A stretch of 64,000 nt of DNA from Corallococcus soli (lineage in GTDB: Bacteria; Myxococcota; Myxococcia; Myxococcales; Myxococcaceae). Shown piece after piece: positions 43,337 to 60,647 of this stretch; the first letter of the stretch is position 1, and the number at the start of each line of letters is the position of its first letter. Below the pieces are notes generated by a model. The model had not been told where the DNA came from and did no database searches. It saw nothing but the letters and a program-made list of their open reading frames with translations. The stretch covers positions 930,001 to 994,000 of the forward strand of contig NZ_JAAIYO010000003.1 in assembly GCF_014930455.1 (NCBI RefSeq), in the 5' to 3' direction. The translations under genes and the position numbers were made by a program.

Positions 43337-45757
<2,421 letters not shown>

Positions 45758-45773
45758 GGAGCACGGGCGCCGC

Positions 45774-47366
45774 ATGGACCTGAAGCGCAAGCTGTCGCGA
45801 TTGACCAGCGCGGGCCCCGGCGGTTCGCGGGGGCCTCCGGCTCCGGTGAACGCCGTGGTGGAGGCACGCGCCGGGGAGCCGGTGCCGGACGCGCAGGTGG
45901 CACTGCGTCAGGCGGTGATGCGCGCAACGGTCGCGGAGGCACAAGGCCAGCGCGAGGTGTTGGAAGAAGCCGGGACGACCACCGTCGCGGAGGTTCTGGT
46001 GGAGGCGCTGCGCAAGCGCCTCTCGATGGACGGCGACGCGTCGCCCCCGCTCCCCTCGTCAGGGGCGGATGAGTCCGGGGAGGCTTCGGGCCTCGTGGAC
46101 CTGCGCGAGGAAGCGCGGCGGCGGTTCGCGGTCCGGAAGGCTGGCGTCGCGGACGGCCCGGCGGATCCCCGGGTGGAGTCGCTGCGCCAGATGCTGTCCT
46201 TCTGGGCGGAGCGTCAGGGCACGGCCTCCGCGCGGCGGGCGGTGGCCCCGGTGCCCGAGCCCCGGGCGCTGCCGGTGGAGGCGCGCACGACGTCGTTCGG
46301 CACGGTGCACGTCGCGGAGCAGGTGTATCCGCCAGAGCATCGTCACGGCACGGCGCCGGTGGCGGCGGCGCTCGACGTGGAGTCGCGGCTGGTGGCGAGC
46401 CTCGCGCTGCACCCGGAGCTGGAGTCGGTGGACTTCACGCGGATGCTGATGCTGGACACGGAGACGACGGGGCTCGCGGGTGGCACGGGCACGGTGCCGT
46501 TCCTGGTGGGGCTCGCGTGGTTCGAGGGTCGCTCGCTGCGCGTGCAGCAGCTCTTCCTGCGGCGCATGGGGGAAGAGGCGCCCATGCTGCGCCTGCTGGC
46601 AGAGCGCATGGCGTCGTCGTCCTGCCTCGTCACGTACAACGGCAAGAGCTTCGACTGGCCGCTGTTGCGCACGCGCTTCGTGCTCAACCGGGTGCCGGTG
46701 CCGAAGGAATTGCCGCACCTGGACCTGCTGCACTGCGCGCGGCGCGTGTTCAAGCACCGGGGCGAGGGCGCGAGGCTGGTGCACCTGGAGTCGAAGGTGC
46801 TGGGGCACCACCGGGTGGATGACGTGGACGGCTCGCTCATCCCGGAGCTGTACTTCCGCTTCCTGCGCGGCACGGACGGCTCGGAGCTGGTGCCGGTGCT
46901 GGAGCACAACCAGAAGGACCTGCTGCTGCTGGCGGCGCTGCTGGGCGACCTGGTGCGCCGCTTCAAGGCGGAGGGCACGGAGCGGCAGGATCCCCGGGAT
47001 CTGCTCGGCTTCGCGCTGGTGGCGGAGCGGGCAGGGGACCCAGCGCGGGCGCTGAGCTTCGCGGCGGCGGCGGCAGAGGGCGGCGGCCCGGTGGGGATTG
47101 AAGCGCTGGTGGTGGCCTCGCGGCTCTCACGACGGGCCGGGGACTGCGAGACGGCGGTGGCGCACCTGCAACGGGCCCTGACGTTCGCGCGGCCCGGACA
47201 GGGCGCGACGCTGCACCTGTCGTTGACGAAGCTGTATGAGCACTCGCTGAAGGACCTGCCCCGGGCCCTGTTCCACGCGCGGCTGGCCGCGCCGGTGGAG
47301 CTGCCCGCGGACCACCAGCTCCGGCTGGAGCGGCTGGAGCGCCGGCTGTCACGTCAGGGCGCCTGA
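45774..47366 (+). CDS. mrfB: MrfB/YprB-like 3'-5' exonuclease with TPR tail
   Basis: 530 aa. After a disordered N-terminal region of about 150 residues, an RNase H-fold exonuclease domain starts near residue 222. It has LMLDTETTGLAGGTGTVPF (DxE pair), CLVTYNGKSFDWPLLRTRF (third Asp) and LEHNQKDLLLLAALLGDL (last Asp), which is the YprB DEDD pattern. A TPR-like tail follows (GFALVAERAGDPARALSFA, AVAHLQRALTFARPGQGATL). The start is ATG 45774 with GAGGAG 12 bases upstream, 16 bases after the helicase stop. Excision repair of crosslink or bulky lesions with the helicase is the likely role. Confidence 0.82.
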   Translation: MDLKRKLSRLTSAGPGGSRGPPAPVNAVVEARAGEPVPDAQVALRQAVMRATVAEAQGQREVLEEAGTTTVAEVLVEALRKRLSMDGDASPPLPSSGADESGEASGLVDLREEARRRFAVRKAGVADGPADPRVESLRQMLSFWAERQGTASARRAVAPVPEPRALPVEARTTSFGTVHVAEQVYPPEHRHGTAPVAAALDVESRLVASLALHPELESVDFTRMLMLDTETTGLAGGTGTVPFLVGLAWFEGRSLRVQQLFLRRMGEEAPMLRLLAERMASSSCLVTYNGKSFDWPLLRTRFVLNRVPVPKELPHLDLLHCARRVFKHRGEGARLVHLESKVLGHHRVDDVDGSLIPELYFRFLRGTDGSELVPVLEHNQKDLLLLAALLGDLVRRFKAEGTERQDPRDLLGFALVAERAGDPARALSFAAAAAEGGGPVGIEALVVASRLSRRAGDCETAVAHLQRALTFARPGQGATLHLSLTKLYEHSLKDLPRALFHARLAAPVELPADHQLRLERLERRLSRQGA

Positions 47367-49691: not shown

Positions 49692-51044
49692 ATGCCTCGG
49701 TACGAGTTCACGGAAGGCAGCTCCAGCAAGTTCTGGGAGATCACGCTCGAAGGCACGACGCTCACCAAGCGCTGGGGCCGCATCGGCACCGACGGCCAGG
49801 AGAAGACGGAGGACTTCGAGTCCAAGGCGGAGGCGAAGAAGGCCTTCGCCGCGCAGGTGAGGGAGAAGGAGAAGAAGGGCTACGCGCTCGTCGCGGGCTC
49901 GGCGGATGGCGGGGGGGCGGCGGCGGTGTCCGCGACCGATCCGGCCCTGGAGGCCGCCATCCTCGCCGCCCCGGACGACGTGAAGGGCTACCTCGCGTAT
50001 GCCGCGTGGCTCAAGGGCAAGGGCGATCCTCGCGCGGAGCTGATCCAGCTCCAGCACGACACCCTGGAGGCGTCCGCCGCCTCCGCCACGCTCATGCGCA
50101 AGCGGGCGGCGAAGTACATCGCGGAGCACGCGGACTCGCTGCTGGGCGACGAGCTGACGGAGGCGATCGCCGGGGAGGCCCTGAAGCTGGAGTGGCACCT
50201 GGGCTTCATCCGCGAGGCCCATCTGGGTCAGGTGGACTTCGACTCGAACGAGGACATCCCGGAGCTGCTGGGCGTGCTGCTGGCCCACCCGTCCGCGCGG
50301 TTCCTGCGAAGCCTGACCATCGGCATGGCCTGCTTCGACGGCGAGAACGAGTACCACGACACGCTCAAGGTGCTCGGCAAGGCGAAGCCGCTCACGACGC
50401 TGCGCCACCTGTTCATCGGCGACTTCGAGTACCCGGACGACACGGAGATCTCCTGGACCCACGTGGGCGACCTCCAGCCCCTCTACGCCGTGTTCCCGGG
50501 CCTGCGGGAGCTGCGCGTGCGCGGCGGTGAGATCGAGCTGGGGAAGATCGACCTGCCGGAGCTGCGCGCCTTCACCGTGGAGACGGGCGGCCTGCCGCTC
50601 AAGGCGGTGAAGTCCATCGTGAAGGCCCACTGGCCGAAGCTGGAGGCGCTGGAGATCTGGTTCGGTTCGGAGAACTACGGCGCGGGCGGCGGGGTGAAGG
50701 ACCTGCAGCCCCTGCTCGACGGCGAGGGCGTGCCGAACCTGCGCAAGCTGGGCCTGCGCAACGCGGAGTTCACCGACGCGCTGTGCGCGGTGCTCCCCAA
50801 TGCGAAGGTGGTCGCCCGGCTCCAGGAGCTGGATCTGTCCATGGGCATGATGACCGACGAGGGCGCGGAGGCGCTGGCCTCGAACGCGAAGGCCTTCCAG
50901 CACCTCAAGACGCTGGACGTCTCCAACAACTTCCTGACCCAGGCCGGGCAGAAGCGGGTGGCCACCGCCGCTCCTTCCGTGGTGCGCGGCAACCAGCGCG
51001 AGCCGTACGACGAGGACTCGCGCTACGTCGCCGTGGGCGAGTAG
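49692..51044 (+). CDS. WGR-domain leucine-rich-repeat protein next to the STM401x cluster
   Basis: 450 aa. Residues 1-70 are a WGR domain (KFWEITLEGTTLTKRWGRIG, with a WGR core), a nucleic-acid-associated module also found in PARPs. Residues 83-125 are a TIGR02996-type repeat-companion domain (DPALEAAILAAPDDVKGYL, GDPRAELIQLQ). The rest is leucine-rich-repeat-like (LQPLYAVFPGLRELRVRGGE, LRKLGLRNAEF, LKTLDVSNNFLTQAGQKRV). In Salmonella-type clusters an LRR protein (STM4015) lies beside STM4014; this gene sits in the same place and may be its counterpart, but direct family membership is not certain. The STM4014-like gene follows after 14 bases. Confidence 0.75.
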   Translation: MPRYEFTEGSSSKFWEITLEGTTLTKRWGRIGTDGQEKTEDFESKAEAKKAFAAQVREKEKKGYALVAGSADGGGAAAVSATDPALEAAILAAPDDVKGYLAYAAWLKGKGDPRAELIQLQHDTLEASAASATLMRKRAAKYIAEHADSLLGDELTEAIAGEALKLEWHLGFIREAHLGQVDFDSNEDIPELLGVLLAHPSARFLRSLTIGMACFDGENEYHDTLKVLGKAKPLTTLRHLFIGDFEYPDDTEISWTHVGDLQPLYAVFPGLRELRVRGGEIELGKIDLPELRAFTVETGGLPLKAVKSIVKAHWPKLEALEIWFGSENYGAGGGVKDLQPLLDGEGVPNLRKLGLRNAEFTDALCAVLPNAKVVARLQELDLSMGMMTDEGAEALASNAKAFQHLKTLDVSNNFLTQAGQKRVATAAPSVVRGNQREPYDEDSRYVAVGE

Positions 51045-51058
51045 TCCCTCCCACGCCC

Positions 51059-52198
51059 ATGTCCGCCGCGCCGCCGTTCCTGCTCATCGGCAACCCCGGG
51101 AACCGGCGCGTCACGCTCTTCCAGGAGGCCCTGCACCACGCGGGGCTTCCTCCCGCGCTCGTGGTGTCCTGGGAGACGGTGGCCCGCGAGCCGGACGCGC
51201 TGCTGGAGCTTCCCGACTCGGAGGAGCGCATCGTCCGCATCGACGCGGCGGGAGAGGATACCGCCGTGGAGCGGGCCCTCCTGAAGCGGGGCCACGCGGA
51301 TGCGCTTGGCGCCGGCTGTGAGGTCCTGACGCCGGAGCAGGTGGACGCCCTGCCTCCCGAGCACGGCCGAGTGCTGTGCCCCAGGCAGCACCACCTGGGC
51401 TTCCTGCGCGTGCTGGAGGACCTGACGGAGCGCTTCGCCCTGCGTCCGCGCTGGCGCGTGCTGTCGAAGCCGTCCGCCATCGCGGACCTGTTCGACAAGC
51501 GCGTCACGTCGCGCCGGTACGCCGCCCTGGGCATCCCCGTGCCGCCGTACCTGGACGACATCGCCACCCCGGAGGCCCTGCGCCACGGCATGCGCGAGGC
51601 GGGCTGGCGCGAGGCCTTCGTGAAGCTGTCCTGCGGCTCGTCCGCGTCGTGCCTCGCCGTCTACCGGCCGGGGCGCTCACCAGGCTCGGCGGGTTCGCTG
51701 CTCACCAGCCTCCACCGGGGGCCCACCGGCTGGTTCAACTCCCTCAAGCTCCGGCGCGTGTCGGGCGTGGGGGAGGTGGACGCGGTGCTGTCCTTCCTCC
51801 TGCGCGAGGGCTCCCAGGTGGAGGAGTCCCGCCCCAAGGCGCGGCTGGGCGGGGACGTGTTCGACTGCCGCATCCTCACGGTGCGCGGCGAGCCCGCCTT
51901 CACGGTGGTGCGCCAGAGCCGCCACCCCATCACCAACCTCCACCTGGGCGGCTATCGCGGCGACCTGGACGACCTCCACGCGGCGGTGCCCGCGCGGGAG
52001 TGGGAGGCCGCGCTGGAGAGCTGCCGCGCCGTGGCCCGCGCGCACGACTGCCTCCACGTGGGCATCGACCTGATGTTCGAGGAGTTCTTCCACGGCCACC
52101 GCGTGCTGGAGGCCAACGCCTTCGGGGACCTGCTCCCCGGCCTCACGCGCGACGGCCTGTCCGTCTACGGCTGGGAGCTCCGCGAAGCGCTGCGCTGA
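51059..52198 (+). CDS. STM4014-family ATP-grasp-like protein
   Basis: 379 aa. The N-domain has LLIGNPGNRRVTLFQEAL. A central part has ATP-grasp features: LSKPSAIADLFDKRVTSRRY then LGIPVPPYL, AFVKLSCGSSASCLAVY for the nucleotide-binding strand pair, and GIDLMFEEFF...VLEANAFGDLLPGL, the acidic-Asn metal site of ATP-grasp ligases. It matches the uncharacterised STM4014 family. The reaction would be ATP-dependent carboxylate ligation; the substrate is unknown. It overlaps the 3' end of the opposing radical SAM gene by 34 bases. Confidence 0.75.
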   Translation: MSAAPPFLLIGNPGNRRVTLFQEALHHAGLPPALVVSWETVAREPDALLELPDSEERIVRIDAAGEDTAVERALLKRGHADALGAGCEVLTPEQVDALPPEHGRVLCPRQHHLGFLRVLEDLTERFALRPRWRVLSKPSAIADLFDKRVTSRRYAALGIPVPPYLDDIATPEALRHGMREAGWREAFVKLSCGSSASCLAVYRPGRSPGSAGSLLTSLHRGPTGWFNSLKLRRVSGVGEVDAVLSFLLREGSQVEESRPKARLGGDVFDCRILTVRGEPAFTVVRQSRHPITNLHLGGYRGDLDDLHAAVPAREWEAALESCRAVARAHDCLHVGIDLMFEEFFHGHRVLEANAFGDLLPGLTRDGLSVYGWELREALR

Positions 52199-53064
52199 CC
52201 TCCGCCGCGCCACAGCCGCGCCGTCGGCACGCGCTCCAGCAGCCCGGAGCCGAACACGCGATCCAGCTCCAGGTAGTCCAGGTGCACGTAGCCGATGTGG
52301 CAGCCGCACGTGTCCTTCGAGCACGCGCGCGGCTTGAGCGCCTGTTCGAAGCCCGGCGCGTAGAGGTTGCCCAGCGGCTCCTTGATGAAGTGGCACCGGT
52401 AGGCCGTGCCATCGCCGTCCACCGACAGCACGGACTCGCCCGCGCGGCACGCCTTGCCCCGGCTGGGGTGGCGGGTGTTGTTCACCGGGAAGAGCGGGTC
52501 GATGCGGGTGAAGCGCTCCACGTCCTCGGGTGAGTACGCGTCCAGGCCGTCCTTCACCGCGTTGATCCACAGGTACGTGTCTTCCGGCAGCTCGCGGCGC
52601 AGGGCCTCCGCCTCGTCCGCGAAGCGGCGGAAGCCCACCATGCCCGCGCTGTGGCGCACGCCGTGTTCGCTCAAGCGTTCGCACTGCGCCAGGAAGCGCG
52701 CGCGCTTCATCCACTCCGGGTGGTACGTGGCCCAGATGCCCAGCTTGTCGGTGCGGCAGTCGGTGAGCCAGTCCAGCCGGCAGGAGAGGTTGGTCTGCAC
52801 CGCCGCGCGCTCCACGTGGGGCAGGTGCGTCAGCCGGGCCAGGGCCTGCTGATACCAGGGCCAGATGAGCGCCTCGCCCCAGGGCGTGAAGAAGACGGAC
52901 ACGGTGTCCTGGGTGCGCGACTCCACCCACTGGAGGAACCGCTCCAGGTCCGCGCGGTCCTTCGTCAGCTCCTCCTCGCTCTGCTTCCACTTGCCGAAGG
53001 GGCAGTACTCGCAGCCGTAGTTGCAGCCGGACAGCGGGCCCCGGTAGAGCACGGTGAGCCTCAT
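52165..53064 (-). CDS. STM4011-family radical SAM protein
   Basis: 299 aa from ATG 53064 (ATGA overlap with the preceding gene). The radical SAM cluster motif is CNYGCEYC at residues about 14-21, right after LTVLYRGPLSG. Other cysteines late in the protein (YRCHFIKEPLGNLY, then ACSKDTCGCHIGYVHLDYL) could bind a second iron-sulfur centre. This is the size and style of STM4011 proteins. It probably performs radical chemistry on an unknown product of the cluster. The longer open frame upstream is a shadow of the next radical SAM gene. Confidence 0.8.
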   Translation of the reverse strand: MRLTVLYRGPLSGCNYGCEYCPFGKWKQSEEELTKDRADLERFLQWVESRTQDTVSVFFTPWGEALIWPWYQQALARLTHLPHVERAAVQTNLSCRLDWLTDCRTDKLGIWATYHPEWMKRARFLAQCERLSEHGVRHSAGMVGFRRFADEAEALRRELPEDTYLWINAVKDGLDAYSPEDVERFTRIDPLFPVNNTRHPSRGKACRAGESVLSVDGDGTAYRCHFIKEPLGNLYAPGFEQALKPRACSKDTCGCHIGYVHLDYLELDRVFGSGLLERVPTARLWRGGGQRSASRSSQP

Positions 53065-54374
53065 CGCCAGGCGTACTCCTGCTTGCGCCGCCGCACGGCC
53101 TCGGAGTCCAGCCAGGGGCCGATGAGATCCGAGCGCTCCACGCCCGCGCCCGTGAGCTGGAACACACCGTCCACGTCCCGCGCCAGCCCGTGCGCCTCCA
53201 GCTCCGCGAGCATCGGGAAGTCCTCGCGCGCGTCCGTGCCGAAGCGCTGGCGGTACGCGCCCGGACACACGCCCTCCGCCAGCAGCGACAGCACCAGGTG
53301 CCGGTGGCGCTGCTCGGCCTCGTCCAGCACGAACCCGTAGCGCACCTCGCCGAAGGACGCGGTGTCGCGCTCGATGTACGCCTGGATGATGCCGCGCACC
53401 TCGCGTGAGGCGACCGCGTACTCGGACGAGTAGTGCACGTCGCCCGCGTACGAGCGCGCCCCCACGCCCAGCCCCACCATGCCGTCCTCCTGGCAGCGGT
53501 ACACCGCGCCCCGAGCGGCCGGCGCGTGCTTCGCGCGGAACATCCGCATCGACACCTGCGTGTAGCCCTGCGCCAGGAGGAAGTCGCGGCCCGTGCGGTA
53601 CAGCGACAGGCGCAGGTCGTCCCACGCGCGCGACTTCTTGCCCAGGAAGGTGAGGGGCCGCACGTAGAGCGGGTAGAGGTACAGCTCCTCCGGCGCGTAC
53701 CGGAGCGCCGCCTTCAGCGAGCGCAGGAAGGTGTCCGGCGTCTGGCCCTCGATGCCGTAGATGAGGTCCAGGTTGAGCGTGGGGAAGCCCGCGCTCCGGA
53801 GCAGGTCCAACGTGGCCTCCACCTGCGCCGTCTTCTGCGGCCGCGCCACCGCCGCGACCTCCGACTCCAGGAAGCTCTGCACGCCCATGCTCACCCGGTC
53901 CACGCCCCGGGCCTTGAGCACCGCCACCTTGGCCGCGTCCACCGTCTCCGGCGACACCTCCACGGACATGGGTACGGCGCGAGGGTCCACGCCCAGCTCC
54001 GCCGCCAGGTCGAACACCGCCTCCAGGCCGGGCACGTCCAGCAGGGTGGGGGTGCCTCCGCCAATGGCGGCGCGCGCGAACGTGGCCGGGCCCAGCGCGG
54101 CCTTCACCCGGCGGGCCTCGCGCTTCAGCGCGGACAGCCACGCCTGGACAACGTCCTCCTTCGGGCCCGCGGCGGTGAAGAGGTTGCAGAACCCGCAGCG
54201 CATCTCGCAGAAGGGGACGTGCAGGTAGAGGAACAACGCGTCCCGCCGCTCCTTCGCCCAGACGTCCTCCAGCGGCAGCGCGGGGGTGAGGGGGCGGTAG
54301 GCCGTCTTGTGCGGGTAGCCGTAGAGGTACGCCACGTACGGCGTCCCTTCGAGCATCGACTCCAGGCGCGTCAT
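53061..54374 (-). CDS. STM4012-family radical SAM protein (HemN-like fold)
   Basis: 437 aa from ATG 54374. The HemN/HemW-like architecture is clear: LYLHVPFCEMRCGFCNLF (C-x3-C-x2-C), AAIGGGTPTLL, SVEVSPETVDAAKVAVLKA, GVDRVSMGVQSFLESEV, LNLDLIYGIEGQT. A C-terminal winged-helix part follows. The family has not been given a reaction. Both ends overlap neighbours as ATGA, so STM4013, STM4012 and STM4011 are translated as one coupled unit. Confidence 0.85.
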   Translation of the reverse strand: MTRLESMLEGTPYVAYLYGYPHKTAYRPLTPALPLEDVWAKERRDALFLYLHVPFCEMRCGFCNLFTAAGPKEDVVQAWLSALKREARRVKAALGPATFARAAIGGGTPTLLDVPGLEAVFDLAAELGVDPRAVPMSVEVSPETVDAAKVAVLKARGVDRVSMGVQSFLESEVAAVARPQKTAQVEATLDLLRSAGFPTLNLDLIYGIEGQTPDTFLRSLKAALRYAPEELYLYPLYVRPLTFLGKKSRAWDDLRLSLYRTGRDFLLAQGYTQVSMRMFRAKHAPAARGAVYRCQEDGMVGLGVGARSYAGDVHYSSEYAVASREVRGIIQAYIERDTASFGEVRYGFVLDEAEQRHRHLVLSLLAEGVCPGAYRQRFGTDAREDFPMLAELEAHGLARDVDGVFQLTGAGVERSDLIGPWLDSEAVRRRKQEYAWR

Positions 54375-55183
54375 GGTGTGGAGTCTAGCGGCAGCACGAA
54401 CTCCCCATACGGGACAGTCCACACCACCGGGTGCCCCAGCCGGTGCCCCGAGTGGCCGTCCTCGCCATAGGCCGTCCCGTGGTCCGAGCACACGATGCAG
54501 AACGCCGGCCCCCGCCGCCGCAGCGCCTGGAACAGCCGGGGGAGCTGGCCGTCCACGTACGCCAGGGCCGCCTCCTGCGTCTCCCGGGAGTCCTCCCGCG
54601 CGCCGGGGACATAGTGCCGGTTGGGCTGGTGCAGCGCGGAGACGTTGATGAACAGGAACACCCGCTGCTCCCGGGGCAGCGCCTCCAGGATTTTCACTGC
54701 GAGTGATGCCTGAAATTCCGTGGATTTCGGGTCTGTCACCCCCAGCTCGGGGGACCAGTGGGACTCGGCGAAGAGGCCTGGGAGCACGCGGCCCAGGGGG
54801 TTCTTCAGGTTGAAGAAGCCGGTCCCGCCAATACACACCGTGTGATAGCCGCGCCCCGCGAGCCCCGTGACGATGTCCGGCGCATCCAGCACGCAGGTGC
54901 CCGGGCCCGTCGTCTCGCTGCCCTCGAAGCGCAGGGCGAACGGGCGCGGGTGCCGGCCGGGTGCGGCGGGGGTGGGGAAGAAGCCCGCGAAGAAGGCCTG
55001 GTGCGCCGCGTAGGTGAAGCTGCCCGGGCTGTGGCGCTCCTCCCACCGGCCCCCCGGCAGCAGCGCTCCCAGCGTGGGGGTGAGGCCGCGCTCCAGCGCT
55101 TCCCGGGCCACGTCGTACCGCAGCGTGTCCAGCGTGAGGAAGAGCAGGTCGTGCGTGCCGACCAGCGTGTTCAGGTCATGCAT
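54371..55183 (-). CDS. STM4013-family hydrolase (alkaline-phosphatase/sulfatase fold)
   Basis: 270 aa. The N-terminal metal-binding strand LLFLTLDTLRYDVA and the C-terminal CSDHGTAYGEDGHSGH-type site match the phosphatase/sulfatase superfamily, and the remaining lines (SPGSFTYAAHQAFFAGFFPT) fit STM4013. A Thr in LDTLRYD may be the nucleophile. There is no signal peptide, so a cytoplasmic substrate is likely. It is the first gene of the minus-strand operon. Confidence 0.8.
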   Translation of the reverse strand: MHDLNTLVGTHDLLFLTLDTLRYDVAREALERGLTPTLGALLPGGRWEERHSPGSFTYAAHQAFFAGFFPTPAAPGRHPRPFALRFEGSETTGPGTCVLDAPDIVTGLAGRGYHTVCIGGTGFFNLKNPLGRVLPGLFAESHWSPELGVTDPKSTEFQASLAVKILEALPREQRVFLFINVSALHQPNRHYVPGAREDSRETQEAALAYVDGQLPRLFQALRRRGPAFCIVCSDHGTAYGEDGHSGHRLGHPVVWTVPYGEFVLPLDSTP

Positions 55184-55248: not shown

Positions 55249-56628
55249 CTACGAGATGTTCGGCGCCGGCTCGAACTCGGGCTGGGTGGGCCCGGGGGGC
55301 GGCGTCGGGGCCGGCGTCGAGGCGAGCGGCCGGCGCGAGCCGTCGGGGTTCATGGTCGCGTTGTACAGCGACGTGGCGAAGGCCTCCTGCCCCCGCTGCG
55401 ACAGCGCGCGGAAGGCCTGATCCATGGGGCGCTGCCCGCCGGCCATGTCCGGCCCCAGGGTGCGGCCCAGCAGCTCCCGGGCCTGCGACTCGTTGAGGCG
55501 CACCGAGTACGGGGCGCCGTCGTTCATCGCCGCGTCGTCGGCGGAGAAGGCGCCCCGGGCGATGCGCGCGGCGTTCGGATCCGTGAAGGTCAGCTCGTAG
55601 TTCGTCTCCGCGGGCTGCCCGGGCCGCGTCGTGGTGGTCGCGCGCACGGAGTCGTTGATGCGCGTGTCCCCCTGGCCGGTGCCGTCCGGGTTCAAGCGCA
55701 GGTCGGTGCTCTGGGTGCTGCCCGCCACGTCGCGGTCCGTCTGGCGCACGGTCTGGTTGCCGTCACCGTCGCCCGTGAGGTTCGTGCGCCGCTCGGAGGT
55801 GGCCACGCGCTGGCCCAGCACGCGCCCCTCGCCGTTCTGGCTCAGGCCGTCGGTGGTGCGCACGTTGCTCACGCCCGGGCCGTTCTCCGCGGGGAGCTGG
55901 CCGGTGCGCAGGAACTGCTGGTACGCGGCCTGGCCCTCCGGCTGGGTGATGTTGAAGTCGGCCGTGCGGGTGCGCTCCATGCGCTGATCCTGCCGGCCCT
56001 CCAGGCCCCGGACGTTGGCGGCGTCCCGCTGACGCTCCTGCGTCGTCACGCTGGCGCGCAGCGTGTCCGGCGACGTGCGCTCCAGTTCGAAGCGCTGCGT
56101 CTGGGTGTGGTCGTACGACGCGCCCATCCCCAGCGCCTTGCCCGCCCGGCCCGGCCCTCCGGAGAGCCCGGCGTTGAGGCCCTCCTGTCCGGTGCCCTCC
56201 GCCCGGGCACGGGTGCCCACCGGCCACGTCTCCGGCGCGGCGGGGTCGGGCAGCTGCCCGTTGCGCATGGCCTCCGTCGCGGCCTGGCGCGGCACCTCCA
56301 CGCGCACGGAGCCGGTCTCGCTGGACGACGCCCCCACGGACAGCCGCCCCGCGCGCTGGGAGCCGCGGTCGCGCGCCTGTCCCTGGGACTCCATCACGAA
56401 GGTGTCACCCTCGGTGCGCACGCTCGCGCGGCCCGAAGGACGCATCGCCTCCACGGGCGTGAACGTGGAGCGCTCCCGCTCGGCGAGCGCGGCTGCGGCC
56501 TGCTGGGCGCCGTCGACGGGCTGCTCGGCGGGAGCCTGGGGCGGGTCCGCGGGCGTCTGCCGCTCGACCGGAGCGACCGGGGTCCGGGGCTGAGAGGACG
56601 AAACGGGGCGGTTGGGGATGGAAGTCAT
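55249..56628 (-). CDS. Uncharacterised disordered/beta-rich protein
   Basis: 459 aa, not recognised. No signal peptide or span is seen. The first 60 residues are Pro/Ala/Gln-rich. The middle alternates short strands and polar turns with many Thr, Arg and Gln (SYDHTQTQRFELERTSPDTL, RMERTRTADFNITQPEGQ, NLTGDGDGNQTVRQTDRDVA). The end has an ordered helical stretch (LSQRGQEAFATSLYNATMN). It resembles the polar scaffold proteins common in myxobacteria and could be exported by a non-Sec route. It is divergent from the protease gene. Confidence 0.7.
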   Translation of the reverse strand: MTSIPNRPVSSSQPRTPVAPVERQTPADPPQAPAEQPVDGAQQAAAALAERERSTFTPVEAMRPSGRASVRTEGDTFVMESQGQARDRGSQRAGRLSVGASSSETGSVRVEVPRQAATEAMRNGQLPDPAAPETWPVGTRARAEGTGQEGLNAGLSGGPGRAGKALGMGASYDHTQTQRFELERTSPDTLRASVTTQERQRDAANVRGLEGRQDQRMERTRTADFNITQPEGQAAYQQFLRTGQLPAENGPGVSNVRTTDGLSQNGEGRVLGQRVATSERRTNLTGDGDGNQTVRQTDRDVAGSTQSTDLRLNPDGTGQGDTRINDSVRATTTTRPGQPAETNYELTFTDPNAARIARGAFSADDAAMNDGAPYSVRLNESQARELLGRTLGPDMAGGQRPMDQAFRALSQRGQEAFATSLYNATMNPDGSRRPLASTPAPTPPPGPTQPEFEPAPNIS

Positions 56629-56816: not shown

Positions 56817-59105
56817 ATGCAGAACATGCGGAAGCGCTTCTCGACGTCCCCTCGTAGCTGGCAGCCGTTCACGGCGCTGGTGCTGGGTTGCACCCTCGCG
56901 GTTCCCGCGGGCGCGCTCGCCGCGAACCCGACGCCTCCGGCGGCCTCGCGGGCCGTGGCGGCTCCGGGCGCGGCGGTCGTCACGGCGCTGAAGGCGGGTG
57001 GCAGCACGCTGGCGACGCCCTCGGGGCTGGTGTTCCACCAGACGGCGCGGCCGGTGAGCGCCCTGCGCACCCTGAACGTGGTGGCGGACAGGGGCGTGCA
57101 ACTCCACGTCTGGCAGGAGCGTCAGGCGGACGGCACGCAGCAGGCCTATTCGGCCTATACGCGCGGCGGCACGGAGCTGATGGGGCGCGTGCAGGAGGAG
57201 CAGTACCTCATCCGGCTGCAGGAGGCGTCGTTCGACCCGCTCGCGCGCAACGCGCCGCTGCTGGGCAACGCGCTGGTGGCGGACCGGGACAACACCCTGT
57301 CGCTGGTGCAGTTCCACGGCACGCCGCTGCCGGAGTTCCGCGAGACGATCCAGAACGCGGGCGGCAAGGTGCTGCGCTTCCTGTCGGATCACACCTACCT
57401 CGTCGAGATGGACTCGGAGATCCGCGCTCGCGTGGCGCAGCTCCCCGCCGTGCGCTGGGTGGGGGACTACCACCCGGAGTACCGCCTGGAGCCGGCGCTG
57501 CGTGACGCGCTGCTGGGACGGGCGGAGGGGCTCGCGCCCCAGCGCTACTCCATCATGCTGGGCGAGAGCGGCCCGGCGCGGCAGGCCCGCGTGTCAGCGC
57601 TGGTGCAGCGGCTGGGCGGCAAGGTGGACCTGGTGGAGCCGGGCGGCCTGCGCGTGGAGGCCACGCTCAGCCAGGAGCAGCTGGCCCAGCTGGCGCGCGC
57701 CAACGAGGTGCAGTTCATCGACCGGTGGGGCGGGCCCGGCGAGACGGACATGAACATCGTGCGCGAGACGGGCGGCGCCAACTACATCCAGGGCCTCAAG
57801 GGGTGGACGGGGCAGGGCGTGCGCGGGGAGATCTTCGACACCGAGCTGCGCACCACCCACCGCGAGTGGCCCACGCCGCCCATCATCCACAGCACGGGGA
57901 CGACGGGGTCGCTGCACGGCACCAGCTGCTACAGCCACAACTTCGCGCAGGGCATCGATCCGCTGGCGAAGGGGCTGCTGCCGAGCGGGCAGGGCATCTT
58001 CTTCCTGTACTCGGAGTCCACGCAGTTCGGCGGCACCAAGTCGCGCTACACGATGAACCAGGAGCTCATCAACCCGACGGGGCCCTACCGCGCGGTGTTC
58101 CAGACCTCCAGCGTGGGCAGCACTTTGGGCACCGCGTACACCACCATCTCCGCGGAGGTGGATGACTACCTGTTCAAGGCCCCCCTGCTGAGCACCCAGT
58201 CCCAGAGCAACTCCGGCACGCGCAACTCGCGCCCGCAGGCCTGGGCGAAGAACATCGTCTCCGTGGGCGGCGTGCGGCACTACAACACGCTGGCGCGCAC
58301 GGACGACCGGTGGAGCGCTGGCGGGAGCATCGGCCCGGCGGCGGACGGCCGCATCAAGCCGGACCTGTCCTTCTACTACGACTCCGTCCGGGGCGCGTCC
58401 GGCTCCAGCGACAGCAGCTACACGGAGTTCGGCGGCACCAGCTCCGCGACGCCGCAGACCGCGGGCCACTTCGGCCTGATGTTCCAGATGTGGCACCAGG
58501 GCGTGTGGGCCGGCAAGGGCGGCAAGGCGGACGTCTTCACCAGCCGTCCGCAGATGGCCACCGCGAAGGCGCTGATGATCAACGGCGCCGCGAAGTACAA
58601 CTGGCTGGCCGGCGGCGCCAACGCGGACCTGGACCGCTACAAGCAGGGCTGGGGGACCTCCGACCTCAAGCGCCTGTACGACCGCGCCGCGAAGACCTTC
58701 GTCGTCGACGAGACGGACGTCCTCACGCCCCTGGCCACCAAGGCGTACAACTTCACCGTGGCCACCGGTGAGACGGAGCTCAACGTCACCCTGTCCTACA
58801 AGGACCCCATGGGCACCGTGGGCGCGGCCCGCGCGCGCATCAATGACCTGTCCCTGCGCGTCACGTCGCCCACGGGCGTCGTGTACTGGGGCAACAACGG
58901 CCTGACCGCGGGCAACGTCTCCACCGCCGGTGGCGTCTCCAACAAGGTCGACACCGTGGAGAACGTCTTCCTGGCGAACCCCGCCGCGGGCACCTGGAAG
59001 GTGGAGGTCCTGGCGGATGAGGTGGTCCAGGACGGTCACCCGGCGACGACGGCGGTGGACGCCGTCTACGGCCTCGTGGTGAGCGGCGGCGTCCTCAAGC
59101 CGTAG
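56817..59105 (+). CDS. Secreted subtilisin-like (S8) serine protease
   Basis: 762 aa. A long signal peptide (residues 1-36, ending LAVPAGALAAN) is followed by an inhibitory-type prodomain of about 270 residues. The S8 catalytic triad is spread as expected: Asp in VRGEIFDTELRTTHREW, His in GSLHGTSCYSHNFA, Ser in EFGGTSSATPQTAGHFGL. The C-terminal P-like/beta domain (LNVTLSYKDPMGTVGAARA) continues to the end. It is an exported protease, plausible for predation or nutrient release. ATG 56817 has AAGGGAG 7 bases upstream, and a strong hairpin follows the stop. Confidence 0.85.
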   Translation: MQNMRKRFSTSPRSWQPFTALVLGCTLAVPAGALAANPTPPAASRAVAAPGAAVVTALKAGGSTLATPSGLVFHQTARPVSALRTLNVVADRGVQLHVWQERQADGTQQAYSAYTRGGTELMGRVQEEQYLIRLQEASFDPLARNAPLLGNALVADRDNTLSLVQFHGTPLPEFRETIQNAGGKVLRFLSDHTYLVEMDSEIRARVAQLPAVRWVGDYHPEYRLEPALRDALLGRAEGLAPQRYSIMLGESGPARQARVSALVQRLGGKVDLVEPGGLRVEATLSQEQLAQLARANEVQFIDRWGGPGETDMNIVRETGGANYIQGLKGWTGQGVRGEIFDTELRTTHREWPTPPIIHSTGTTGSLHGTSCYSHNFAQGIDPLAKGLLPSGQGIFFLYSESTQFGGTKSRYTMNQELINPTGPYRAVFQTSSVGSTLGTAYTTISAEVDDYLFKAPLLSTQSQSNSGTRNSRPQAWAKNIVSVGGVRHYNTLARTDDRWSAGGSIGPAADGRIKPDLSFYYDSVRGASGSSDSSYTEFGGTSSATPQTAGHFGLMFQMWHQGVWAGKGGKADVFTSRPQMATAKALMINGAAKYNWLAGGANADLDRYKQGWGTSDLKRLYDRAAKTFVVDETDVLTPLATKAYNFTVATGETELNVTLSYKDPMGTVGAARARINDLSLRVTSPTGVVYWGNNGLTAGNVSTAGGVSNKVDTVENVFLANPAAGTWKVEVLADEVVQDGHPATTAVDAVYGLVVSGGVLKP

Positions 59106-59174: not shown

Positions 59175-60647
59175 TCAGGGCGTCGGCGCGGGCGGCGCGC
59201 CTTCCTCCTGCGGGACTGCGGGGCGGGGCGCGCTCGCCACCGCGCGCTGGATGACGGGCGGTGACGCGTTGAGCGCCCCCACGTAGATGCGGCCGTGGAA
59301 GCCCTTGTCGCTGGGCGCGGAGAAGAGGGCCACCTTGCGCGGCGTGCCCGGCTCCTGGCGCACGTCCGCGGACGGGCTGAGCGCGTACACGTTGCACTCC
59401 ACCTGCTCCCAGACGTTGAAGCGGCAGGAGAACTGCGAGCCGCGCGTGAAGCCCACCTCCAGTGCCTTCACGGGGGAGGAGGGCACGGCCTTTGTCAGCC
59501 GCGAGCCCAGCGGTTCGAAGTCCTTGTTCCAGCTCACCGGCTTCGTGCGCACGTGCACGTCGCCCGCGAGCGCCAGCAGCCACACGTCCGGGTTCGCCTT
59601 CCGGTACGCGATGAGGTTCTTGGCCATCTCCTCCTCGCGTGCGTTACCGGACGCGGTGTTGGAGTCGAACGCCAGCACCGTGACGGCGTTGCCCCGGGCG
59701 CGCAGCCGGCGGGCCTGCTCAATGAGGCGCAGGAGCGCGCCGCTGCTGCGGCCGTCCTGGTACACCCGGCGCCAGAAGGAGCTGACCACCAGCAGGCGCT
59801 CCAGGTCCGAGTTGGTGCCCGCGCTCGCCAGGTACTCGTCCAGCGCGGGCTGATCCTCAGACGGCAGGGACAGCGCCAGCGCCACCGACAGCTTCTTCTC
59901 CGTGGCGTCGCAGAGCATCCGCGTGGCGGCCTCCGGCAGCTCGCGCGTGCCCAGCGGATCCGCCACCAGCAAGGACTGCCCGGCCACCAGCAGCGGCTCC
60001 ACGCCCTGGAGGGGCTCACCGCAGCGCACGTCGCCCCTCTGCGCGTCCTCGTCCCAGCCGTCCACCGTCACGGAGCGCACCGGCGCGGACGTCTTGCCCC
60101 CCACCAGCTCCAGCGACGGGACCATCTCCAGCTTCGACAGCAGCCGCCCCTCCAGCTTGAGGTCGCGGATGCCGCGCACCATCGTGAAGCCCTCCATGTC
60201 CGGCACGCCCTCGAAGGTGAAGCGCTCGAAGGTCTTGCGCGCCAGGTACTTCTCCTCCTCCTGGACGCGCTCGTTGAGCCACTTGGGCTTCTGCTCGATG
60301 TTGGTGTCCTGCTCGCGGTAGCGCAGGCGGAAGACGCGGATGATGGACTGGCGCGGGCCCACCTGCGCGCCCTTCACGAAGTAGCGCTCGAAGGTGCGGT
60401 TGCCGGGCCGGTTCATGCCGGGCTCGTGCGCGGAGGTGTACAGCTCGTGGTGACCCTCGCGCGTGAAGACGTCGTAGCGCTGCTCCTCGAAGATGTGGCG
60501 CATGGTGAGCAGCGCCTCGTCCAGCGGCACCAGGTACACCGTCTCCGCGGTGGGCGCCTCGCCCTGCTCCATGCCCTCGTCGTGGAGGTCGCGGGTCAGG
60601 CTGGCGCAGCCAAAGCACATCAGTCCCAGCATCCAATGCCACCGCAT
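59175..60647 (-). CDS. Uncharacterised lipoprotein, possibly ChaN/Tiki-superfamily
   Basis: 490 aa. A short lipoprotein signal (WMLGLMCFGC, Cys 14) and a very strong ribosome site (AGGAGGT) support ATG 60647. The C-terminal half contains NAVTVLAFDSNTASGN, IAYRKANPDVWLLALAGDVH and VRTKPVSWNKDFEPLG. The 'GD/N-x-H' element at that place is reminiscent of ChaN/TraB/EreA-type proteins, but the catalytic Glu/His set cannot be mapped with confidence. The N-terminal half is unrecognised. Outer-membrane lipoprotein is the safe call. Confidence 0.65.
   Translation of the reverse strand: MRWHWMLGLMCFGCASLTRDLHDEGMEQGEAPTAETVYLVPLDEALLTMRHIFEEQRYDVFTREGHHELYTSAHEPGMNRPGNRTFERYFVKGAQVGPRQSIIRVFRLRYREQDTNIEQKPKWLNERVQEEEKYLARKTFERFTFEGVPDMEGFTMVRGIRDLKLEGRLLSKLEMVPSLELVGGKTSAPVRSVTVDGWDEDAQRGDVRCGEPLQGVEPLLVAGQSLLVADPLGTRELPEAATRMLCDATEKKLSVALALSLPSEDQPALDEYLASAGTNSDLERLLVVSSFWRRVYQDGRSSGALLRLIEQARRLRARGNAVTVLAFDSNTASGNAREEEMAKNLIAYRKANPDVWLLALAGDVHVRTKPVSWNKDFEPLGSRLTKAVPSSPVKALEVGFTRGSQFSCRFNVWEQVECNVYALSPSADVRQEPGTPRKVALFSAPSDKGFHGRIYVGALNASPPVIQRAVASAPRPAVPQEEGAPPAPTP

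Follow-up and report, generated by a model that had tools for sequence, protein, structure and literature searches.

The DNA analysed here (the window) is a stretch of 64,000 nucleotides from the 9.44-Mb genome of Corallococcus soli, contig NZ_JAAIYO010000003.1. Positions 49,692 to 55,183 hold five intact genes of the families STM4011 to STM4015, which we call the cassette (Table 1). A first-pass annotation of the letters alone had described them as two radical S-adenosylmethionine (SAM) enzymes, an ATP-grasp-like ligase and a phosphatase/sulfatase-fold hydrolase, accompanied by a protein joining a WGR domain to leucine-rich repeats (LRRs). Its gene boundaries and enzyme calls are right. STM4013, STM4012 and STM4011 form a compact minus-strand run with 4-base overlaps (ATGA). 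The plus-strand pair STM4015 and STM4014 is directed towards this run, and STM4014 and STM4011 converge in a 34-base overlap. All four enzymes exceed their NCBIfam cut-offs: 363.7 bits against 175 for STM4014 (NF038074), 408 against 200 for STM4011, 592.4 against 380 for STM4012 and 415.3 against 250 for STM4013. The closest named loci are from Corallococcus, with STM4011 identities of 94-97%.

Table 1. Cassette features in the window, followed by neighbouring genes and by genes of other loci mentioned in the text (L numbers denote loci; aa, amino acids; ORF, open reading frame).
Feature	Position	Strand	Remarks
STM4015-family LRR protein	49692-51044	+	450 aa; WGR + TIGR02996 + LRR + C-terminal tail
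WGR domain of STM4015	aa 6-65		68.3 bits, cut-off 22
TIGR02996 domain of STM4015	aa 83-122		45.1 bits, cut-off 29.05
LRR part of STM4015	about aa 185-430		
Conserved C-terminal tail RYVAVGE	51021-51041	+	aa 444-450; Glu450 is the proposed attachment site
STM4014, ATP-grasp ligase of modelled ArgX/LysX/RimK fold	51059-52198	+	379 aa; proposed loader of the terminal Glu
STM4011 radical SAM enzyme, Twitch/SPASM-like	52165-53064	-	299 aa
STM4012 HemN-like radical SAM enzyme	53061-54374	-	437 aa
STM4013 alkaline-phosphatase-superfamily hydrolase	54371-55183	-	270 aa
OmpA-like gene			dropped neighbour
Presumed subtilase-like gene	56817-59105	+	dropped neighbour
ORFs	55249-56628; 59175-60647; 45663-47366		dropped neighbours
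STM4015 protein with BRCT in the LRR part	L091:2904-4211		
STM4015 relatives ending in GD[YWIF]E	L059:8797-10308; L071:8961-10187; L071:10160-11638; L222:412-1683		
Tailed STM4015-like protein	L194:6262-7389		genome without STM4011 match
HAD-type and HAD-like side cases	L039:6965-8530; L038:7834-8568		
DUF6745 genes (examples)	L034:7884-8885; L035:424-1512; L036:1619-2641		near cassette

Judged by its sequence, the WGR-LRR protein is the fifth member of the named NCBIfam set STM4011-STM4015. It matches NF038076 (STM4015) with 245.9 bits (E 4e-73) through the last position of the model. This is below the family cut-off of 275 bits, which is reached in none of 195 Myxococcota genomes; we read the window protein as a homologous, syntenic and divergent branch below that cut-off. 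Its AlphaFold model has a predicted local distance difference test score (pLDDT) of 94.1, and the top Foldseek match is PDB 2ra8 (Q64V53_BACFR from Bacteroides fragilis; phmmer E 2.6e-46). This entry is a solved WGR-LRR relative from structural genomics, and a single literature search for it found no paper naming it. The WGR domain, by which the first-pass annotation had defined the protein, is an optional decoration. The N-terminal part is variable: among ten relatives scanned, two carry one WGR, one carries two, six have neither WGR nor BRCT, and one has a BRCT domain inserted in the LRR part.

A conserved peptide lies at the opposite end of the protein. In eight STM4015 proteins from seven sources the N-termini align poorly; the C-terminal ends consist of an acidic stretch and a short motif, always with Glu last. 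The tail consensus is R-Y/F-x-A-V-(G/S/A)-E, Glu being the very last residue, and the window protein ends in EDSRYVAVGE. After removal of redundancy and of loci chosen by their tail pattern, 105 distinct STM4015 copies stand beside cassette genes, meaning that one or more enzyme genes were found in the stretch that holds the copy. Terminal Glu is present in 102 of them (the other three end in D, G and D), and the pattern R[YF]xx[VILM][GSAT]E fits 80. With redundancy included, 121 of 124 STM4015 matches across the loci end in Glu. A looser-tail count of 164/190 was not used; it included loci chosen by tail pattern (L121-L150 and others).

The alignments show how strongly the last position is constrained. 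Of the 87 loci introduced below (L034-L120), 44 were kept, and single long or odd rows were then left out (1/44 for STM4014, 1/59 for STM4015, 2/42 for STM4013, 3/44 for STM4011 and 2/43 for STM4012). In the weighted STM4015 alignment of 59 sequences, Glu450 is 99% Glu and ranks seventh among 298 scored columns, behind six Leu or Gly columns. Arg444 is 87% R, Tyr445 is 75% Y and 13% F, and position -2 is occupied by S (44%), G (30%), A (11%) or T (10%).

The terminal Glu is not a by-product of ATGA gene overlap. The window gene ends in GAGTAG, followed by a 14-base gap before the ATG of STM4014, and copies without a downstream STM4014 in the fetched stretch also keep the Glu. Except for this gap the cassette genes abut or overlap, leaving no room for a separate precursor peptide between them. 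Such a short peptide, which the first-pass annotation had suggested searching for, is not needed, since the LRR protein itself carries the conserved peptide as its C-terminus.

Across genomes, tail and cassette go together. Followed by a true stop codon, the tail pattern occurs in 57 of 61 Myxococcota genomes with the cassette and in 5 of 134 without it; for Streptomyces the numbers are 60/70 and 4/80 (matches whose last codon is TGG are excluded throughout). The reversed control pattern, counted by hand, occurs in 22 of 195 Myxococcota genomes (5/61 with the cassette, 17/134 without) and in 12 of 150 Streptomyces genomes. Hence, the control shows no such link. In the 9.4-Mb genome of the window, the tail pattern and the reversed control each match once. 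The four Myxococcota cassette genomes missed by the pattern have variant tails, all Glu-ended (HYAAVGE twice, RYSVLGE and RYTSIAE). Among the five cassette-less Myxococcota genomes with a match, only that of G153 lies inside an STM4015 homologue; those of G009 and G065 fall in unrelated frames, and the sites in G063 and G175 showed neither an STM4015-like frame nor one ending in the motif.

STM4015 genes may be numerous and may lie far from the enzymes. Among the 87 loci, two have four STM4015 copies each and another two have three. One genome (G068) yielded ten fetched homologues above 200 bits; they lie on contigs other than those of its enzymes, and all end in RYxxxxE. Numbers of paralogues per genome are lower bounds, as at most 11 candidates were scored in each. 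Cassette genomes also supplied 60 remote copies, whose fetched stretch has no enzyme gene; 48 of these end in Glu. This count derives from 53/66 by removal of the window's own gene (L001) and of five genes whose neighbouring STM4014 is truncated where the locus stops; L211 contributes three of them, L215 and L216 one each, and E is the last residue in four of these five genes. In cassette-less genomes, two of eight STM4015 homologues end in E, one of them a broken gene from a Streptomyces genome whose cassette is itself broken (G303); one intact gene among the eight has a tail-like end. The G153 fragment (L193), which was selected by tail pattern, is left out of this count. Three Streptomyces genomes with STM4015 and without an intact STM4011 (G261, G304 and G331) have lost the tail, their proteins ending in PSISVGPLTY, RYVSIAV and RSICVEGLP. 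The radical SAM enzymes thus appear to be relevant to the tail.

Weak STM4015 relatives from planctomycete-labelled records end in GD[YWIF]E, a different tail in which Glu is again last (Table 1). A Streptomyces group (L227, L229, L231 and L232) lacks the Glu tail, ends in VGP[LV][ST]Y or related sequences, and may have a different role. A tailed STM4015-like protein in a genome without an STM4011 match (L194) adjoins genes that resemble, by eye, those of poly-glutamate synthesis.

The second strand of evidence concerns the ligase. STM4014 has no Pfam match, and its profile searched against the PDB finds LysX first, then RimK and biotin carboxylases, all weakly; in one search no single stretch was significant for LysX or RimK. 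Its AlphaFold model (pLDDT 94.1, built from 37 sequences) finds the ArgX-LysW complex 3vpb first in Foldseek (E 2e-12). In VIA-align, ranks 1 to 9 are all ArgX, LysX or RimK (Z 23.3-21.3), with 3vpb leading at 23.3 and RimK at 22.8. Residues K147, K189, D269, R271, R285, D337, E351 and N353 are invariant and T292 is conserved; the D-x-R...TN stretch aligns with LysX, and the GVD...EVNA stretch with RimK. According to the model, STM4014 folds like ArgX, LysX and RimK, ligases that act on a protein C-terminal Glu.

The first-pass annotation had asked whether the five families co-occur, and the genes do so closely. Among plasmids, 13 records matched STM4011, from Deinococcus, Streptomyces, Embleya, Nonomuraea, Methylobacterium, Paenibacillus, Bacteroides and Salmonella. 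Seven were opened, six of them annotated, and five of these six have the order 4015-4014-4013-4012-4011. In the Bacteroides plasmid locus 4015, 4014 and 4011 are retained, and 4013 and 4012 are reduced to remnants. Scanning one genome per species gave at least 582 relatives, of which the best 80 were kept; these are titled Myxococcota, Cyanobacteria, Chloroflexota, Planctomycetota, Verrucomicrobiota, Bacteroidota, Actinomycetota and others. All five genes are present in 65 of the resulting 87 loci (80 + 7) and in 44 of the 53 loci of at least 16 kb. Some incomplete loci are cut contigs, and for five (L054, L061, L065, L074 and L081) STM4015 lies elsewhere in the same genome, as a broken gene in L081.

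Among the 195 Myxococcota genomes, STM4011 exceeds its cut-off in 61, STM4014 in 60 and STM4013 in 61. The three sets of genomes coincide, save for the fragmentary G106, which has no STM4014. Among 150 Streptomyces genomes, 70 have STM4011 over its cut-off, 71 have STM4015 over its cut-off and 68 have both; G251 and G337 have STM4011 only, and the three genomes with lost tails have STM4015 only. In 14 control genomes, including E. coli, none of STM4011, STM4014, STM4013 and STM4015 exceeds its NCBIfam cut-off. In four genomes (G150, G151, G152 and G154) STM4014 adjoins STM4015, and STM4011 lies on a different contig. This pair standing apart from STM4011 indicates a direct relation between ligase and carrier.

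The remaining enzymes suggest what kind of chemistry may follow. STM4011 has CX3CX2C at C14, C18 and C21, and five more invariant cysteines at C206, C224, C248, C253 and C255. Cluster cysteines of SPASM/Twitch domains follow the pattern CX9-15GX4C, and the spacing in STM4011 fits it (C206-x12-G219-x4-C224; 42 rows). Weak matches are to SkfB (E 0.0077, PDB profile) and PapB (0.013). STM4012 has CX3CX2C at C56, C60 and C63, followed by N-L-F. The HemN motif has a fourth cysteine (CX3CX2CXC), which STM4012 lacks. It matches HemN (1olt) almost end to end (E 2e-58) and also the methyltransferase NocN (1e-37), and it stays far under both the HemN and HemW cut-offs (TIGR00538, 121.2 bits against 324.95).

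STM4013 weakly matches arylsulfatase, nucleotide pyrophosphatase/phosphodiesterase and phosphoethanolamine transferase chains. We rejected a sulfatase activity: the Pfam Sulfatase match (27.0 bits, cut-off 25) covers part of the protein only, and no cysteine is invariant (Cys117 nearly so). Invariant columns include Asp19, Thr57, His185, Asp211, Asp234, His235 and His247. By its sequence the protein reads more like a phosphoryl-handling member of the superfamily, on motifs that we take to be diagnostic. As a side observation, a HAD-type hydrolase overlaps STM4011 in the Salmonella locus, and STM4011 of the Bacteroides locus is prolonged at its C-terminus by a long stretch that by eye resembles a HAD domain; this hints at a phosphatase step.

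We propose a carrier-type assembly system to explain the cassette. On balance, it probably modifies proteins post-translationally at the terminal Glu of STM4015, with STM4014 loading this residue and the other enzymes remodelling what is loaded. STM4014 would activate a carboxylate of the terminal Glu and form an amide bond between it and a molecule bearing an amine. Radical chemistry by STM4011 and STM4012 would next remodel the attached group, or residues of the tail, and STM4013 would contribute a hydrolytic step, removing or transferring a phosphoryl-type group. Where a genome has several tailed LRR paralogues, the enzymes would act on them in trans. The product would stay on the LRR protein as a prosthetic or effector group, and the LRRs with their optional WGR or BRCT parts would provide targeting. 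The first-pass annotation had offered the WGR-LRR protein as an accompanying substrate, carrier or sensor. The conserved tail supports a substrate or carrier; the protein is not an extra partner, being STM4015 itself.

We lean towards a retained group over a released product because neither proteases nor exporters recur next to the cassette, and because the LRR carriers diversify and are many in some genomes. The absence of both was seen in the six annotated loci, whose gene table is incomplete; one S41 peptidase lies at the margin of the Bacteroides locus. A bolder version of the proposal is that LRR recognition protein families of many phyla receive the same radical-SAM-built group on their C-terminal Glu, one enzyme set arming many proteins in trans. 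This version is tentative, and we hold it to be possible rather than probable.

The pathway built on LysW offers a parallel. Its enzymes include a kinase, a reductase and an aminotransferase, in place of which the cassette has radical SAM enzymes. In both systems the carrier ends in Glu after an acidic stretch and the ligase has the same fold; the carrier and ligase genes (STM4015 and STM4014) are often adjacent here. LysX and ArgX attach an amino acid to LysW at the gamma-carboxyl of its C-terminal Glu, in a tail EDWGE that is recognised by the ligase motif GSWGR, and an E54A change turns a haloarchaeon into an arginine auxotroph, according to passages of one report (PMC10433800). LysW is a small zinc protein with Zn-binding cysteines, whereas STM4015 has an LRR fold, and some genomes have several STM4015 carriers. 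The tail is RYxAVxE instead of EDWGE. The loop GSWGR of LysX is GSSAS in STM4014 (residues 193-197), and the HMMER alignment of the two extends to the GS of this loop. Because tail and loop differ, the analogy is one of mechanism and not of membership.

Two further systems are comparable. RimK shares the ATP-grasp fold, and its partner, ribosomal protein S6, resembles STM4015 in that a protein C-terminus is the proposed substrate; STM4015 is not S6, and radical SAM and hydrolase genes co-occur here. In pearlins, as described in part of one source, a group is built at the C-terminus of a carrier through an amide tether, with radical SAM tailoring in one case, by means of a tRNA-dependent ligase and a protease (PMC9303977). 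STM4015 differs from the pearlin carriers described there as a large folded carrier, and its six annotated loci show no recurrent protease or exporter. Among matches to the five cassette proteins there is no PEARL family, and neither a tRNA-dependent ligase nor a protease was seen among these proteins.

The rival that survives best, although we consider it rather unlikely, treats the tail as the core peptide of a ribosomally synthesised and post-translationally modified peptide (RiPP). STM4011 and STM4012 would alter residues such as the conserved Tyr, STM4014 would make a graspetide-type ring or cap, and cleavage would release the product from the LRR protein. The graspetide ligases PsnB (rank 3, just before RimK) and MdnC are among the Foldseek matches of STM4014, the cysteines of STM4011 are SPASM/Twitch-like with the SkfB and PapB matches noted above, and R and Y/F of the tail are conserved besides Glu. 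However, the tail has no conserved Lys, Ser or Thr column that could serve as ring partner, and the missing protease in the annotated loci speaks against cleavage as well, within the limits given above.

It is unlikely that the tail serves only as a recognition tag or degron, with the modification elsewhere or on a small molecule. A short end motif common to diverged paralogues does suit a linear docking motif, and the model positions the tail with fair confidence. Yet the strongest constraint on the tail falls on the terminal residue, and STM4014 shares the fold of ligases acting on just such a Glu. Quite improbable is a RimK-like system, in which STM4014 only marks STM4015 for regulation by adding Glu or poly-Glu, the radical SAM enzymes belonging to a separate small-molecule pathway: RimK is nearly as near in fold and the STM4015-STM4014 pair can sit apart from STM4013-4012-4011, but STM4011 is accompanied by STM4014 in 60 of 61 Myxococcota genomes and the three Streptomyces STM4015 genes without intact STM4011 lost their tails.

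Several observations weigh against assembly on the terminal Glu of STM4015. First, the tail is not universal: 12 of the 60 remote copies in cassette genomes have no final Glu, including a Myxococcota group ending in [TN]VA[YH]RD, a Streptomyces pair ending in VGP[LV]SY and broken genes in G122 and G218. Tail-like ends also occur without the enzymes, namely FYVSVSE in G015, which has no STM4011 match at all, and the RYVAVGE fragment in G153, an 89% complete genome in which STM4011 does not reach its cut-off. Few homologues come from cassette-less genomes (eight, one of them broken), and the fetched loci were chosen by the analyst. Since the genomes are related, the Fisher p-values for cassette and tail overstate independence and do not count as independent evidence. 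Second, G068 and G147 have no listed STM4015 on the contig of STM4014, and the planctomycete-labelled G199, G207 and G209 have STM4011 with only weak STM4015 matches (best E 1e-16 to 4e-11). Third, the fold of STM4014 is separated from other ATP-grasp enzymes by a modest gap: glutathione synthetase reaches Z 21.1, while D-Ala-D-Ala ligases as well as PurT/PurK reach about 20-21, with a tie between rows 9 and 10 and sequence identities of 15-22%. Foldseek's third place for PsnB, a peptide macrocyclase, and the altered loop belong here too; peptide macrocyclases are not among the 50 VIA-align rows listed, which proves nothing. Finally, the tail block of the STM4015 model has a pLDDT of 83, which is fair, and the tail may dock on the LRR part rather than be free.

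Searches of the literature by locus tag, family name and LRR, radical SAM or RiPP terms found no functional paper on STM4011-STM4015, most subscription papers lying outside the search; the first-pass annotation likewise knew of no assigned product. STM4013.S is listed in a table of sigma-54 binding sites and STM4015 in a table of a positive-selection study, and the passages concerned assign no function to either. What is new here is the conserved Glu-ended tail of STM4015, its tracking with the cassette and the ArgX/LysX/RimK fold modelled for STM4014. These families are annotated by locus tag across many phyla, Salmonella included, and for this orphan cassette a likely substrate (the terminal Glu of STM4015) and a likely first enzyme (an ArgX/LysX-like ligase) can now be named. 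If the proposal is true, carrier-protein biosynthesis, known from a small zinc protein and from short peptides, would extend to large repeat proteins with recognition domains, and a widespread post-translational modification would be added. Should many LRR proteins bear the same group, it would be a new kind of protein prosthetic group.

A role in phage defence, which the first-pass annotation had raised, finds no support: PADLOC matches are weak and partial (WGR_XIII 22 bits, pVip 20 and 18, PDC-M51A 26). The genes flanking the cassette were considered as parts of the system and dropped, as among L034-L120 they are matched only in the Corallococcus loci L041-L043. They include a gene that we presume, by eye and from its motif, to be subtilase-like (Table 1).

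A DUF6745 gene lies near the cassette in 32 of the 87 loci, in some of them with a short hypothetical gene beside it. DUF6745 proteins have a conserved end of their own, mostly ...[EQ]T, and are possibly a sixth component of the system. One locus titled Comamonas sp. KCTC 72670 (L050) has a cassette STM4011 that is 78% identical to that of the window and stands among Myxococcus relatives, which suggests a wrong label or a mixed assembly. A 5.9-kb record labelled Salmonella phage (OR850900.1, hit H14) contains STM4011, which is probably host DNA.

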